Of a stretch of 64,000 nt of DNA, positions 58,030 to 63,865 are shown piece after piece. The notes beneath the pieces are model-generated. The model ran no database searches. It was not told where the DNA came from and saw only the letters and a list, made by a program, of their open reading frames with translations. Source of the stretch: an uncultured Draconibacterium sp. (GTDB lineage: Bacteria > Bacteroidota > Bacteroidia > Bacteroidales > Prolixibacteraceae); NCBI RefSeq assembly GCF_963675585.1, contig NZ_OY776414.1:971001-1035000 (forward strand), read 5' to 3'. A program made the translations under genes and the position numbers. Numbering within the stretch: position 1 is the stretch's first letter; each line of letters starts with the position of its first letter.

Positions 58030-61000
58030 ATGAATTCAGTCGATTTATACACGGAGAATGAGGAAGCATATTCTTTTGAAGATTTCTTTGATATTGAAGA
58101 AATTCAAAGAATGCAGGATTTGTTTGCTGATGTTAATGAGGTGGCATCCATAATTACCCAACCAGATGGTACTCCATTAACCAGGCCTTCAAATTTTACG
58201 CGGCTCTGTGCCGAAATTATCCGGAGATCACCAAAAGGACGTTTAAAATGTTTTCGTTCCGATTCCGTTATCGGCGAGTGTAATACAAGTGGTTCAACCG
58301 TGCACAAATGTTTAAGCGCCGGAATATGGGATGCCGGTGTAACGATTAAAATCGGGGATTTTCATGTTGCCAATTGGTTGATAGGGCAGGTAAAAAGTAC
58401 TGAACTGCAAAAAGAAGAATTGGAAAAATATGCAGATGAGATTGATGTAGACAGAACTGTTTTTATCGATGCATACAAGGAAATTCCGATCATGTCGGAA
58501 AACAAATTCAATAAAATTGCTGAATTATTAGCCGCTTTTGTTACCGAAATTACAGACAAGGCCTATAAAAATATTCTTGTTCAAAAGGAAATAAGCGAAA
58601 AGGAAGTTATCCTTCACCAAAAGAAAGAAAAGGAGCAGGAATTAAAAGAGACTTACGATGAATTTCGGCTTATTTCTGAAAATGTACCAACTATAATTTG
58701 GAAGGCAGAAATTACAAGTGACGGAAGATTTGTAAATTCCTATATTTCGGAAATAGCAGATGAATTATTGGAATTACCAAAGGGAACAATAAAAAATGAT
58801 TTTGAAAAATACTTTTCATACGTTGTTCCTGAAGATCTAGCCTTATTGAATAAAACCATTACAGAAGCAAAGTCGAATCCTGGTAAAACATATAGTGAAT
58901 CCTACAATGTAAAAAAAGATAACGGGGAGTTGGCTATTTTCGAAAGCACCGGACGCATACACAAGCTAAATAACAAAATGCTGTTTATAGGAACTACTGC
59001 TGATATTACCGCCCAAAGAAAAATAAAAACACGCCTGCAAGAAGATGAATACGTGATGAAACAGGCGCAAAAGGTGACTAACTTTGGGTATTATGTTTTA
59101 GATGTGGTAACCGGCTTTTGGGTAAGCTCAAGTTTTTTGGATTACATATTTGGTATTGACGATTCATACGAGAAAGATGTTTCAGGATGGCTTGACTTTA
59201 TTCATCCGGATGACCGGAAGATGATGGAGGAATACTTTTATTCGGAAATTTTAGAAAAGCATAAAAATTTTAATAAACAGTACAGGATAATAAAAGCAAA
59301 CAGCGATGAAGTGGTTTGGGTTCACGGAATGGGAGAACTCGAAATGAATGAGGAAGGGAAAGTTGTAAAAATGATTGGTACCATTCAGGATATTACCAAG
59401 CGCAAGGAGATGGATGATTTATTACTGGAAAGCGAGGAACGATACCGATCTTTATTATCTAACTTGCCAGTTGGAGTTTTTCGTTCTTCATTAAAAGGCG
59501 AGGTGCTTTCTGCGAATCAGGCAATGGCCGAAATGTATGGATATGAAACAGTGGAAGAATTGCTTCAGGTTCCTGCAGAAGAATATTATGCCGAATCAAA
59601 TCCAAGAGACTTGATGCTTGAAAAACTACTGGCCGATGGCTATTTACTCGACTATGAAACGCAAGAGCATAAAAAGGATGGTTCGTTAATATGGGTTTCA
59701 GCCAACTATAAGCTGGTTAAGAATACAAATGATGGAAACTATTACATTGAAGGCGTTTTGATCGATGTTTCTGACCGAAAGAGAGCGAATATAAAATTGG
59801 AAGAAAGCGAACGTCTCCTCGCAAAAATTACCGATAATTTTCCAAATTCTTACATCTCCATTATAGAGAAAGACTATACGATCGGTTATAGTGGAGGTCA
59901 GGAATTTATTAAACAAGGAATCGACCCCAAATCATTTTACGGCTGTACCTTGCACCAGGTTTTTGATGACAAAGCAGGTTTTGTGCGTGATTTTTATGAA
60001 AAAACGTTTAATGGAGAAGAATGCAATTTTGAGCTTTTTATAAACAATCAATTTCAGAAATACAAAACAGTGCCTTTGTATTCTTCTGCGAGCGAGATTG
60101 ATCGTATTTTAGTTGTAACTGAAAATATTACAGATCAAAAAGAAAAGGAAATTGAAATACTTGAAGCAAAAGCAAAAGCAGAGGAAAGCACTGAAAGATA
60201 TGAGTTAGCCATGCAGGTTACACATGACGGGCCGTATGACTGGAATTTGATTACCAACCAAATTTATTATTCCGACAGGTGGAAAGAAATAGTGGGATAT
60301 AAACCAGATGAATTACAAAATGACTTTTCGGTTTGGGAGCAACTAACAAATCCTGAAGATGTAAAAAGATCGTGGGAATTACTAAATCGACATATAAAAG
60401 GTGAGGTTGATAAATTTGAGATCGAATTTCAAATGAAACACAAGGACGGGCATTGGGTTGATATTTTATCGCGTGCCCGTGCTCAGTTTGATAAAACAGG
60501 AAAGGCAATTCGTGTAGTTGGTACACACATTGATATTACCGAATCAAAAAAAGCAGAAAAACATCTTCGTGAAAATGAAGAACGATTTAGAAAACTAACC
60601 GAGCATTTGCCCAGTGGAATTGCCATTTATCACCCTTTGGAAGGGGGCAGGGACTTTCGAATTATTGATATTAATAAAACTGCTGAGGTAATAACAAACT
60701 CAACACGAGAGGAATTAGTAGGAAAGACCTTTCTAAACGCATTCCCAAATATGGAAGGAACGCCATTGTATAAAGCCCTTAAGAAAGTGAGTAAAACGGG
60801 TATTGACGAATTTATTCCTTCCTTTTATTACAAGGATTCAATACGTGAAGGATGGCGCGAAAATTTTGTATATAAGTTACAAACGGGTGAAATTGTTGCC
60901 ATTTTTAGAGATACAACTAGCATTAAAAAGGCGGAAGAGAATTTGATTAAACAAAATAGAGAGTTAGAAAATGCCAAAGCGATTGCCGAACAAAACCAGG

Positions 61001-62484
61001 CTCGCTTTAAAGCGCTGCACGATGCATCCTTTGGTGGAATTGCCATTCATGATAAAGGAAAGATTTTGGATTGCAACCGCGGCTTAACAAAATTAACGGG
61101 ATTGAAGCAAAAAGAACTTATTGGTATGGATGGTTTGTTGCTGATTGCCAAATCGCACCGTAAATTTGTAATGAAAAAGATATTGGATGAATACGCCAAA
61201 CCATACGAAGCTGTTGGAGTTCGTAAGAATGGGGAAGAATATCCGGTTCGTTTGGAAGGACGTATGATTCCGTACAATGGTAAACGGGTTCGTGTAGTTG
61301 AGTTTAGAGATATAACCGATATTAAAAGGGCAGAACACGATCTTATAAGCGCAAAAGAGAAAGCCGAAGAATCGGATCGCTTAAAATCGGCCTTTTTGGC
61401 AAATATGAGTCACGAAATAAGAACTCCGATGAATGGAATTCTTGGCTTTACAAGCCTTTTGCAAGAACCCGGGCTTTCTGGAGAACAACAACAGAATTAC
61501 ATCGATATTATTCAAAAAAGTGGCGACCGAATGTTACAAACCGTTAACGATATAATTGAAGTGTCGAAAATTGAAACGGGGCAGGTAAGTGTTGCACAAA
61601 CAAAGGTAAACGTAAGCACTTTGCTTGAATATTTGTACGACTTTTTTAGAGCAGAAACAGATCGGAAAGGGTTGGAGTTGTTGCTTGAAAATCAATTGCC
61701 AAGTAGCGAAAGTGAAATATTAACCGATGAAAATAAACTCAATTCGATACTCAGTAATTTAATTAAAAATGCAATAAAATATTCCGACACAGGTTTAATA
61801 AAAATAAGTTGTACAAAGGAAAATAAACACATAAAATTTAGTGTAGCAGACCAAGGAATCGGTATTCCAATTCACAGGCAGAAAGCTATTTTTGATCGTT
61901 TTGTACAAGCCGACATTGAAGACAAGAGAGGCCATGAAGGATCGGGTTTAGGATTAACAATTACCAGATCGTATGCAAAAATGCTGGGAGGTGGTGTTTG
62001 GCTCGAATCGCGCGAGGGAATAGGTAGTACGTTCTATGCGACAATTGAATACAAACCTCTTTCAAAAAAGGAAAAGACCTTAATAAATAAAACAAACGGA
62101 ATTAAAACTATGGTAGAAGATAAAAAGCATATACAGATTTTGGTTGCCGAGGATGATGACGTTAGTTTTATGCTCCTGGAAAATATACTTTCATCGGAGA
62201 ACTACACGCTAACACAAGCGAAAAACGGGAAAGAATTAATTAAAGCGTTCAAACAAAATCCGTCGTTTAAATTGATATTAATGGATATTAAAATGCCGGA
62301 ACTGGATGGAATTGAAGCAACAAAACGAATAAGGGAATTTAATGAAACTGTTCCGATTATTGCACAAACCGCTTATGCGCTTGAAGGTGATAGAGAAAAG
62401 GCATTGGAAGCAGGGTGTAATGCTTATGTTTCGAAACCTATAAATAAGAACGATTTGTTGCAAAAAATTCAATCGCTTTTGTAA
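58030..62484 (+). CDS. Hybrid histidine kinase with PocR sensory domain and about seven PAS domains
   Basis: A 1484-residue soluble hybrid kinase. The N-terminal PocR ligand-binding domain (about 18-180) has conserved cysteines (RLCAEIIRRSPKGRLKC, HKCLSAGIWDAGVTI, FHVANWLIGQV). It is followed by a short coiled coil and about seven tandem PAS/PAC units (about 205-1105, for example PEDLALLN, HKDGHWVDILSRAR, VEFRDITDIKRAE). The kinase core has His1128 in NMSHEIRTPMNGILGF and ATPase boxes NLIKNAIKYS and GSGLGLTI, and a receiver domain has Asp1419 in LILMDIKMP. PocR domains were first described in propanediol regulation and sense small molecules, here cytoplasmic. There is no output domain, so another regulator must take the phosphate. 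Confidence 0.94.
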   Translation: MNSVDLYTENEEAYSFEDFFDIEEIQRMQDLFADVNEVASIITQPDGTPLTRPSNFTRLCAEIIRRSPKGRLKCFRSDSVIGECNTSGSTVHKCLSAGIWDAGVTIKIGDFHVANWLIGQVKSTELQKEELEKYADEIDVDRTVFIDAYKEIPIMSENKFNKIAELLAAFVTEITDKAYKNILVQKEISEKEVILHQKKEKEQELKETYDEFRLISENVPTIIWKAEITSDGRFVNSYISEIADELLELPKGTIKNDFEKYFSYVVPEDLALLNKTITEAKSNPGKTYSESYNVKKDNGELAIFESTGRIHKLNNKMLFIGTTADITAQRKIKTRLQEDEYVMKQAQKVTNFGYYVLDVVTGFWVSSSFLDYIFGIDDSYEKDVSGWLDFIHPDDRKMMEEYFYSEILEKHKNFNKQYRIIKANSDEVVWVHGMGELEMNEEGKVVKMIGTIQDITKRKEMDDLLLESEERYRSLLSNLPVGVFRSSLKGEVLSANQAMAEMYGYETVEELLQVPAEEYYAESNPRDLMLEKLLADGYLLDYETQEHKKDGSLIWVSANYKLVKNTNDGNYYIEGVLIDVSDRKRANIKLEESERLLAKITDNFPNSYISIIEKDYTIGYSGGQEFIKQGIDPKSFYGCTLHQVFDDKAGFVRDFYEKTFNGEECNFELFINNQFQKYKTVPLYSSASEIDRILVVTENITDQKEKEIEILEAKAKAEESTERYELAMQVTHDGPYDWNLITNQIYYSDRWKEIVGYKPDELQNDFSVWEQLTNPEDVKRSWELLNRHIKGEVDKFEIEFQMKHKDGHWVDILSRARAQFDKTGKAIRVVGTHIDITESKKAEKHLRENEERFRKLTEHLPSGIAIYHPLEGGRDFRIIDINKTAEVITNSTREELVGKTFLNAFPNMEGTPLYKALKKVSKTGIDEFIPSFYYKDSIREGWRENFVYKLQTGEIVAIFRDTTSIKKAEENLIKQNRELENAKAIAEQNQARFKALHDASFGGIAIHDKGKILDCNRGLTKLTGLKQKELIGMDGLLLIAKSHRKFVMKKILDEYAKPYEAVGVRKNGEEYPVRLEGRMIPYNGKRVRVVEFRDITDIKRAEHDLISAKEKAEESDRLKSAFLANMSHEIRTPMNGILGFTSLLQEPGLSGEQQQNYIDIIQKSGDRMLQTVNDIIEVSKIETGQVSVAQTKVNVSTLLEYLYDFFRAETDRKGLELLLENQLPSSESEILTDENKLNSILSNLIKNAIKYSDTGLIKISCTKENKHIKFSVADQGIGIPIHRQKAIFDRFVQADIEDKRGHEGSGLGLTITRSYAKMLGGGVWLESREGIGSTFYATIEYKPLSKKEKTLINKTNGIKTMVEDKKHIQILVAEDDDVSFMLLENILSSENYTLTQAKNGKELIKAFKQNPSFKLILMDIKMPELDGIEATKRIREFNETVPIIAQTAYALEGDREKALEAGCNAYVSKPINKNDLLQKIQSLL

Positions 62485-62581: not shown

Positions 62582-62639
62582 CGTCACCCTGAATTTATTT
62601 CAGGGTCTTTTTGTCAATGGTCAGGTAATCAGCATGACG
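62582..62639. repeat. REP-like element with two inverted copies
   Basis: CGTCACCCTGAATTT (62582-62596) opens a hairpin, CCCTGAA...TTCAGGG, followed by CTTTTT. About 30 bases further on, a second related sequence in the opposite orientation (ending ATGACG at 62639) reads CGTCATGCTGATT on the minus strand. Such paired CGTCA...CTGAA repeats are dispersed in many Bacteroidota genomes. The first hairpin could also serve as terminator for the hybrid kinase gene about 100 bases upstream. The rest of 62485-62773 shows nothing further. Confidence 0.5.
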
Positions 62640-62773: not shown

Positions 62774-62802
62774 TTTGTTATTCAATAAAACCATTACTTT
62801 TG
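62774..62802 (+). promoter_or_regulatory. Promoter of the leader peptide-corA unit
   Basis: TTTG (62774-62777) and TACTTTTG (62795-62802) lie 17 bases apart, and the -7 box runs into CCACC, the usual Bacteroidota form. Transcription would start near 62809, 27 bases before the leader ORF and 124 before corA. This placement excludes a longer open frame starting at 62698. Confidence 0.65.
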
Positions 62803-62835
62803 CCACCGATTATAAAAATTAAAACAAATTTTGAA

Positions 62836-62883
62836 ATGGACGAAGGCCCGTATCATACGAAGAAATTATTAACTTTCCTTTAA
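62836..62883 (+). CDS. 15-codon leader ORF upstream of corA
   Basis: ATG at 62836 to TAA at 62883 encodes MDEGPYHTKKLLTFL. It lies between a promoter and the corA gene and ends 49 bases before the corA ATG. The opening Asp-Glu followed by proline resembles peptides that destabilise the ribosome when magnesium is low, as MgtL does ahead of mgtA in enterobacteria. The stop codon is just before a pair of competing hairpins. Whether it is translated is unproven; a chance ORF of this size would not be surprising by itself. Confidence 0.45.
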   Translation: MDEGPYHTKKLLTFL

Positions 62884-62890
62884 GGGGGCA

Positions 62891-62930
62891 CTTTGTTTTG
62901 TCTCCTCAAAGGGTTATTTGAAAGGAGACA
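62891..62930 (+). promoter_or_regulatory. Mutually exclusive hairpins controlling the corA ribosome-binding site
   Basis: Structure B pairs TGTCTCC (62899-62905) with GGAGACA (62924-62930) and TCAAA (62906-62910) with TTTGA (62917-62921), leaving a 6-base loop and a 2-base bulge. It buries the corA Shine-Dalgarno AAAGGAG (62921-62927). Structure A pairs CTTTG (62891-62895) with CAAAG (62907-62911), using part of the same strand, so A and B cannot coexist. A ribosome stopped at the leader stop (62881-62883) would cover the CTTTG arm and favour B, shutting corA off. Confidence 0.55.
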
Positions 62931-62932
62931 GC

Positions 62933-63865
62933 ATGATCAAAATTTTCAAAAGTTTGGCTGGTCAAATCAGCTTGTCGAATCCTGAAAAAGGATGTTGGAT
63001 AAATGTACTGGAACCAACAACGACAGAAATTAACCATTTAACAAACGATTTAAACGTACCTGAAGATATTATTCGCGATATTTTAGACGTCGACGAACGT
63101 CCGCGCGTGGAGTATGACGATGACTGGACTTTGATTATTTTCAGGATTCCGGTAGCCACCGAGAATAACGGAGTGCCTTACCAAACGGTTCCTCTGGGAA
63201 TATTTGTGAGCTCCGATTTTACACTAACGCTTTGTTCAACAAAAAACGAAGTTTTAAACTTTGAATCGCCCACTTTGTACCGCGAGAAAAAACAGCAGGT
63301 TTCTGATATTCTTAATTTTCTGTTTCGTTTGTCATTGCGTTCGGCACAGGTTTTCCTGATCTATCTGAAACAAATAAATCAGCAAACAGCTGCAATTGAA
63401 CAGGATTTGGAAAAATCGATCAGGAACAAAGAATTGAATAAGCTGCTAAAAATGGAAAAATGCCTGGTTTATTTTATCACTTCGTTGAAAGCCAATGAAT
63501 TGGTGCTTGCGAAATTGGGCAACGCCAAAAAAAATACCATTAGCGAAATTAACGAGGATTTGCTGGAAGATGCTATTATTGAAAACAAACAGGCACTCGA
63601 AATGTCTCAAATTTATTCCGACATACAAAGTGGAATGATGGATGCATTTGCATCGGTAATATCAAACAACCTAAATGTTGTTATGAAACAACTGGCATCT
63701 ATTTCAATTATTTTAATGATACCAACCTTAATTGCGAGTATGTACGGAATGAACGTTCCCAATTCGGCTGAAACATCACCGTGGGCTTTCCCATCAATTT
63801 TAGGAGCGTCTGTTTTTATGTCGGGTTTGGGCATATTTATTTTCAGAAAAAGGAACTGGTTTTAA
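62933..63865 (+). CDS. corA: CorA-family magnesium (divalent cation) transporter
   Basis: A 310-residue CorA channel: a cytoplasmic alpha/beta domain and long stalk helix (about 1-245), two C-terminal membrane segments (about 252-272 and 285-303), and the signature GMN at 272-274 (SMYGMNVPNS). The basic end RKRNWF follows. The pentamer admits magnesium, and sometimes cobalt or nickel. The ATG at 62933 has AAAGGAG five bases upstream and is preferred to a TTG at 62918 that lies inside the hairpin. Expression is probably controlled by the leader and hairpins upstream. Confidence 0.94.
   Translation: MIKIFKSLAGQISLSNPEKGCWINVLEPTTTEINHLTNDLNVPEDIIRDILDVDERPRVEYDDDWTLIIFRIPVATENNGVPYQTVPLGIFVSSDFTLTLCSTKNEVLNFESPTLYREKKQQVSDILNFLFRLSLRSAQVFLIYLKQINQQTAAIEQDLEKSIRNKELNKLLKMEKCLVYFITSLKANELVLAKLGNAKKNTISEINEDLLEDAIIENKQALEMSQIYSDIQSGMMDAFASVISNNLNVVMKQLASISIILMIPTLIASMYGMNVPNSAETSPWAFPSILGASVFMSGLGIFIFRKRNWF

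Follow-up and report, generated by a model that had tools for sequence, protein, structure and literature searches.

Intrinsic ribosome destabilisation, which Chadani reportedly described in 2017, operates in the MgtL-mgtA leader. Erm-type translation attenuation relies on antibiotic-induced stalling and acts on a resistance gene. The transporter MgtB, whose control is of interest here, is a P-type ATPase. In Salmonella mgtQ, the acidic codons at positions 2 and 5 increase the translation of mgtB via alternative stem-loops, and loss of the mgtQ start codon lowers it (PMC8092293). Enterobacterial corL-corA has two exclusive structures and an inverse relation between corL translation and corA (PMC11552253), and ribosomes drop off at the EPDP motif of MgtL at low Mg2+ (PMC11282234).

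Here, we describe a candidate leader upstream of a corA-like gene in an uncultured Draconibacterium sp. It lies in a stretch of 64,000 nucleotides (contig NZ_OY776414.1), the whole of which we call the window. The sequence-only reading of this DNA, made before any database search, knew of no described leader of this kind in Bacteroidota, and among the titles listed in the literature searches, which did not extend to subscription papers or preprints, there was no such description. Ribosome profiling of Flavobacterium johnsoniae has been published, and a text search of that paper gave no occurrence of corA, of uORF, or of leader peptide (PMC6847099). The best explanation overall, which we hold to be fairly probable, is that a translated acidic leader peptide controls the initiation of corA translation, with low Mg2+ as the likely signal.

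The corA locus and its leader

The corA-like gene (62933..63865, with its ATG at 62933; on the + strand, like the terminator-like hairpin and the leader elements below) encodes a protein of 310 aa with a YGMN motif. It matches PF01544 with an E-value of 3.6e-51 and the CorA structure 4cy4 in the PDB with 4.1e-25, the nearest solved structures being CorA magnesium transporters; by these homologies, the gene downstream of the leader can be assigned to the CorA family with its GMN motif. Its TIGR00383 score (123.9 bits) lies below the curated cut-off of 200.75, and Mg2+ is therefore a putative substrate. Directly upstream of the corA unit, a 1484-aa ORF (58030-62484) resembles, by eye, a hybrid sensor kinase that has several PAS domains and a receiver domain. 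A terminator-like hairpin (62586..62606) sits between this gene and the corA unit; it may be due to chance, since the scan found 1 such hairpin and shuffled sequences gave 1.4 on average.

The promoter proposed earlier, a TTTG followed at 17 nt by a second box, is present at 62774..62802 and is of the Bacteroidota type (TTTG at 62774-62777, TACTTTTG at 62795-62802). A TANNTTTG box recurs at most 70 nt upstream of 109/117 upstream ORFs (uORFs) compared with 88/2340 shuffles, mostly at 22-32 nt from the uORF ATG. In the window, the uORF (62836..62883) runs over 15 codons (MDEGPYHTKKLLTFL) from the ATG at 62836 to the stop TAA at 62881-62883. It begins with Met-Asp-Glu-Gly-Pro, just as first read, and its codons 2-3 (62839..62844; GAC GAA, i.e., Asp-Glu) form the acidic pair that is constant among its relatives. 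In these acidic N-terminal residues, it resembles leaders of the MgtL/mgtQ type.

Two mutually exclusive hairpins are predicted, one around the uORF stop and one at the corA start. Hairpin A (5′ arm 62876..62890, 3′ arm 62899..62913) has 14 bp and -16.7 kcal/mol and spans the uORF stop codon, where a terminating ribosome would mask its 5′ arm. Hairpin B (-13.0 kcal/mol) pairs the anti-Shine-Dalgarno (anti-SD) arm 62899..62910 (TGTCTCC-TCAAA) with 62917..62930, which is made up of TTTGA (62917-62921), a two-base bulge (62922-62923), and GGAGACA (62924-62930) and holds the SD-like AAAGGAG (62921..62927) that precedes corA. The shared switching arm, 62899-62910, is common to both and makes them exclusive. 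The sequence-only reading was right about this exclusivity and about B, but it had misdrawn A as CTTTG/CAAAG (62891-62895/62907-62911), whose 5 bp can pair and are worth merely -2.6 kcal/mol versus -16.7 kcal/mol; that version of A was rejected.

The folding energy of the whole leader is mildly unusual (z -2.03; 10/200 shuffles equally good). Its bistable-overlap score, which rates nucleotides for pairing with the stop region in nascent transcripts as well as with the start of corA, is 10.46 versus a shuffled mean of 3.07 and is reached by 0/100 shuffles. In naked RNA, a possible helix C would pair the uORF start (5′ arm 62838..62849) with the post-stop region (62886-62889 and 62891-62898); 9/49 leaders of the GP class and 9/64 others place it within the best 5% of their own shuffles, and its enrichment is weakly supported. 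At the gathering score of Rfam release 15, the window leader is without a match, and a sub-threshold hit to RF03161 (S15-Flavobacteria leader) at 62795-62838 (27.3 vs 46.5 bits) is probably due to chance. The same release found nothing but two tRNAs in 20 relative sources, their leaders being unmatched.

Conservation of the acidic upstream ORF

Relatives were collected at four taxonomic levels. The family search matched 60/120 genomes and gave 57 loci with a readable upstream region, the other 3 lying at contig edges; the order search matched 58/295 genomes, with 52 loci counted and the remaining 6 belonging to other searches. At the class level, 41/291 genomes matched and 29 loci were tested, and at the phylum level, 47/296 matched, of which 30 loci were treated by script and 15 by eye, with one partial hit left out. 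The sets share some genomes, and unique counts (113 uORFs, 109 leaders for the bistable score, and 111 leaders for ribosome position) drop identical stretches.

In the strict uORF test, an ATG 55-130 nt upstream of corA had to open a frame of 6-22 codons that starts with M[DE][DES] and stops before corA. The ORF start, whose conservation the sequence-only reading had named as support, is kept in 56/57 family and 37/52 order loci, and the test was also passed by 11/29 class and 13/30 phylum loci, against a background of 8/2180 shuffled upstream regions (family and order sets). In many Bacteroidota, a short ORF beginning Met-Asp/Glu-Asp/Glu sits 67-124 nt upstream of corA. At the level of sequence, a coding-type acidic uORF is deeply conserved upstream of corA, and more widely than first claimed.

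The strict test failed in 15/52 order, 18/29 class, and 17/30 phylum loci, and by eye, the acidic uORF is absent from the 15 further phylum loci. Two near-misses were seen by eye among the 15 order failures, namely L288 (MDGVPDNLENNPA) and L275 (MDEVPLCRLFFDYTKKKAKKIVILP). Loci without the uORF mostly carry more distant CorAs, with the exception of L268, L275, and L277, whose CorAs score as high as those of uORF carriers. Ten MgtE loci (source genome and near relatives) and the second corA of the source genome do not have the acidic uORF, which speaks in favour of the proposed switch. When mapped onto a tree built from 108 CorAs plus one outgroup, the uORF label needs 6 changes versus 30.3 when shuffled (0/500 as low); the starred branches force at least 4 uORF changes, and a single origin without loss is therefore not demonstrated.

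Because the 113 unique uORFs were chosen by M[DE][DES], the independent evidence lies in their third-base pattern and in a first-ATG test. The first two bases of codon 2 are GA in 113 uORFs and those of codon 3 in 111, and the third bases vary. With residues ignored, the first ATG after the TANNTTTG box opens M[DE][DE] in 99 of the 107 loci (out of 168 looked at) that have both the box and a following ATG. The 113 uORFs represent 93 different peptides with lengths of 8-19 codons, and besides D/E at positions 2-3, a constant run of same-amino-acid codons is absent from them. Of the acidic-then-Pro start that was originally put forward, the acidic pair stands, being constant across this set; Pro as an essential element was rejected, since only 69/113 have one within the first 7 residues.

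The coding-type third-base variation in codons 2-3 and the acidic pair in those 99/107 first-ATG ORFs argue against an RNA-only element, in which the uORF would be incidental and temperature, a direct effect of Mg2+ on the RNA, or a protein would set A versus B. The spacing of the uORF start (mostly 22-32 nt past the promoter box), the missing Rfam match, and the lack of any invariant column from uORF codon 5 to the SD in 41 aligned GP-class rows point the same way. Although A and B are stable hairpins on their own, and many MDDYH and MDDYY leaders hardly change their predicted access with ribosome position, we consider this explanation very unlikely.

A scan of genome contigs with an 18-base pattern for MDDY[YH]S yielded at least 120 stretches. 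These loci were chosen by uORF sequence and are thus excluded from the conservation counts, yet they make up most Flavobacterium alignment rows. Among the matches listed (120 of at least 120), 109 precede a corA-like gene with a start, and 108 pass the strict test by the matched ORF; L141 and L171 precede a corA-like frame for which no ATG was found, L108 and L208 are cut off, and 7 lie at unrelated sites, of which 6 belong to named records from other phyla. Named carriers among the matches listed include Flavobacterium johnsoniae CI04 (L112), Prevotella sp. HJM029, and Hoylesella marshii. The broader pattern MDDY[YH] was set aside as near background: it matched 62/295 class genomes, and its reversed control matched many rows as well.

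Some variants of the leader deserve mention. Twelve-codon uORFs (L021, L027, L029, L034, L036-L038, L265, L266, and L270-L272) end earlier than the 15-17-codon forms, and a comparison of L021 with L030 reveals an apparent one-base shift onto a TAA in another frame. In the family f57, where corA has no separate uORF, an ATG in another frame lies 7 nt upstream of the corA start and opens an overlapping frame in 8/8 loci (L243, L244, L245, L247, L252, L253, L320, and L321). Seven of these frames begin ATGGACG (MDDD...) and 1 ATGAACG, and they stay open for at least 26 codons; the overlap with ATGAT forces part of the acidic run, though not codon 2. Such an overlapping ORF could be another way of coupling an acidic leader to corA.

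Conservation of the alternative hairpins

Over 109 unique leaders, the bistable score averages 6.42 versus 2.48 when shuffled, and 71/109 rank within the highest 5% when each is compared with its own shuffles. Although relatedness makes these leaders non-independent, the order set by itself has a share of 16/35.

Covariation in both helices, which the sequence-only reading had also named as support, was found for A in two clades and for B in one. The figures given are for the full 49 GP-class and the full 50 Flavobacterium-type rows, with shuffle statistics that ignore the relatedness of the sequences. In the GP class, A has 80.8% of cells paired, 47 both-side changes versus 21.0 shuffled (0/500), and a covariation of 0.395 versus at most 0.222 when slid, this support covering its middle ten pairs; B has 92.2% of cells paired, 12 both-side changes versus 4.9 (1/500), and 0.260 versus at most 0.140 when slid. 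In 50 of the 89 Flavobacterium-type rows, A is paired in 90.9% of cells with a covariation of 0.319 versus 0.214 shuffled (0/500) and at most 0.169 slid. For B in the same rows (86.0% paired), the covariation of 0.119 is matched by 46/500 shuffles (0.106 on average), and a one-column slide scores higher, at 0.221; B in Flavobacterium is therefore conserved but unproven by covariation. Two reduced subsets led to the same conclusions. In A2, 41 of the 49 GP-class rows remain after the removal of 5 near copies and 3 divergent sequences; in A3, 38 remain of a random 50 from the 89 Flavobacterium-type rows, most of the 12 removed having other arm sequences.

In sequence, the Flavobacterium-type arms bear no relation to the window arms. 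One Flavobacterium sub-group (L135, L199, L128, L201, L219, and L166) combines an MDDYYS leader with quite different hairpin arms, and in some of its members, by eye, TGTAAGCGAT-like stretches face ATCGCATTGC-like ones at the corA start.

B lies over the start region of corA in clades whose arm sequences are unrelated to one another, which speaks for an effect on translation initiation. The alternative is that the leader acts on Rho-dependent transcription termination, as in enterobacterial corL and mgtL, and the E. coli corA 5′ region does work through Rho (PMC11552253). A terminator-like site is absent from the leader, by a scan that is blind to Rho sites, and we regard termination as quite unlikely here.

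Ribosome position and access to the corA start

According to the sequence-only reading, a ribosome at the uORF stop leads to B and an OFF state and an early ribosome to A and an ON state, and this polarity is also what folding predicts for the window leader and for many other SD-bearing leaders. When the front of a ribosome is swept along the window leader, the predicted unpaired fraction of the SD is 0.46-0.72 with the front at 62848-62876 and 0.11-0.13 at 62880-62900. A front at 62904, farther downstream than a ribosome at the stop would extend, is predicted to open the SD again (0.68). The 111 unique leaders used for this comparison are those outside the Flavobacterium pattern set. In the 78 that bear an SD, a ribosome at codon 5 instead of at the stop is predicted to open the SD in 47, with 0 reversed and 31 flat (a change in predicted access not above 0.05), and among the 33 that lack an SD, an early ribosome is predicted to open 7 and to close 1.

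The same predictions also bear on simple translational coupling, in which uORF translation would bring ribosomes to corA. The uORF does adjoin corA on one presumed transcript; nonetheless, the stop-to-start gap is 41-60 nt in the loci listed, with a hairpin in between, and in SD-bearing leaders, complete translation of the uORF is predicted to shut corA. On this distance and this predicted sign, coupling was rejected as scarcely credible.

One part of the original scheme fared less well, namely that ribosome drop-off, leaving naked RNA, would turn corA ON. Without a ribosome, the window leader is predicted to be closed (SD unpaired 0.11; -30.0 kcal/mol when constrained to B versus -25.2 kcal/mol when constrained to A), i.e., OFF at equilibrium, so that the ribosome would have to pause or be loaded repeatedly, or A would have to be kinetically trapped.

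A pure equilibrium folding model is also insufficient outside the GP class, where Flavobacterium and MDDYH leaders show no clear switch. Of 82 Flavobacterium pattern loci (matches listed), 31 move as predicted and 19 are reversed, and for MDDYH leaders, equilibrium folding gives means of 0.30 with an early and 0.28 with a late ribosome. In several Flavobacterium pattern loci, B reaches into the corA codons and is predicted to be more stable than A in every state, so that the timing of synthesis would have to play a role; A could form before the corA start region is synthesised.

The Shine-Dalgarno sequence

Among the 40 ORFs of at least 150 aa in the window, corA alone has AGGAG or GGAGG at the corresponding distance from its first ATG. 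In relatives, such a sequence precedes the uORF-bearing corA in 43/56 family, 32/37 order, and 5/11 class loci, versus 1/34 corA loci without the uORF in these three sets; the counts use first-ATG starts, whereby a few SDs may be hidden. Flavobacterium-type corAs are mostly without it (1/13 with it in the phylum set and 7/108 in the pattern set, matches listed).

Ribosomes of Bacteroidia normally fail to recognise SDs (PMC9976891), and calling AAAGGAG the ribosome-binding site of corA, as the sequence-only reading did, is therefore unsafe; its predicted occlusion by B stands, 62921-62927 lying inside that hairpin. The counts point to a link between an acidic leader and strong SDs where ribosomes normally ignore SDs. 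The AGGAG or GGAGG may be merely a helix arm, or it may be a real SD. A bolder joint reading, which we find rather unlikely, adds SD-competent ribosomes to a Bacteroidota Mg2+ sensor that works by ribosome destabilisation, evolved independently, and gates a true SD in otherwise SD-blind cells. If true, SD-competent (e.g., bS21-deficient) ribosomes would read a small number of genes in Bacteroidales, corA among them, and Mg2+ uptake would be tied to both leader elongation and ribosome composition.

Proposed mechanism and signal

At the level of sequence, the uORF is conserved and its acidic pair constant, the alternative hairpins show covariation, and the predicted effect is one-sided in SD-bearing leaders; we consider a leader-controlled two-hairpin switch on corA very likely. 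A ribosome held in the first codons (Met-Asp-Glu...) would leave the uORF stop region free for A to form; A would sequester the anti-SD arm, thereby exposing the corA start and turning corA ON. A ribosome at the uORF stop would mask the 5′ arm of A, so that the anti-SD arm folds on the corA start (B) and corA is OFF. In window-type leaders, corA would be ON if an early ribosome pauses or is loaded again and again, or if A persists after drop-off.

The sensor is probably the destabilisation or pausing of ribosomes by acidic residues. Low cytoplasmic Mg2+ would most likely make ribosomes unstable or slow on the N-terminal acidic residues, and as the acidic start makes them falter, low Mg2+ would raise uptake. 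With ample Mg2+, ribosomes would reach the stop, B would form, and corA would be OFF. Mg2+ as the signal is somewhat favoured, by analogy with mgtQ and MgtL and by the identity of the downstream gene. We infer uORF translation, acidic destabilisation in Bacteroidota ribosomes, the Mg2+ signal, and translational control, all four.

The same switch might instead respond to the translation state, through ABC-F/EttA-like factors and ATP, bL31, polyamines, or the charging of acidic-codon tRNAs. EttA acts on the acidic motif of MgtL (PMC11282234) and L31 affects mgtQ (PMC8092293). The loci counted, however, have a CorA-type transporter downstream, which is the expected target of an Mg2+ signal, and outside D/E at positions 2-3 a constant one-amino-acid codon run is absent; we give such a signal a modest chance. 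The switch is testable in a tractable genus, since the leader precedes corA in Flavobacterium johnsoniae CI04.

Comparison with known systems

If confirmed, the leader described here would give Bacteroidota a leader-peptide switch of wide conservation, where the titles listed in our literature searches contained none, and it would imply that Mg2+ sensing through ribosome trouble with N-terminal acidic residues also arose outside Enterobacteria. As in Erm-type attenuation, the ribosome position in the leader would free the start of the next gene, but there, stalling is antibiotic-induced and the target is a resistance gene. Enterobacterial leaders allow a closer comparison. MgtL-mgtA is alike in that an N-terminal acidic and proline motif (EPDP) senses low Mg2+ and differs in its Rho output and its transporter (PMC11282234). 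In corL-corA, a uORF likewise lies upstream of corA, with two exclusive structures and an inverse relation to corA, whereas the output is Rho-dependent transcription termination and the layout and phylum differ (PMC11552253).

The closest parallel is mgtQ-mgtB. It likewise has a short ORF with acidic residues near the start, a choice between stem-loops, an inhibitory stem-loop that covers the ribosome-binding site of an Mg2+ transporter gene, and more transporter upon less leader translation; unlike the window leader, mgtQ has 8 aa, lies between mgtC and mgtB, and belongs to another phylum (PMC8092293). An action on initiation rather than termination, which the sequence-only reading had stressed, thus has a translational precedent in Salmonella. 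By analogy, the leader described here would be a case of leader-peptide translational attenuation with the logic of mgtQ-mgtB in a new phylum, gene, and layout, one that we do not class as descended from mgtQ or corL.
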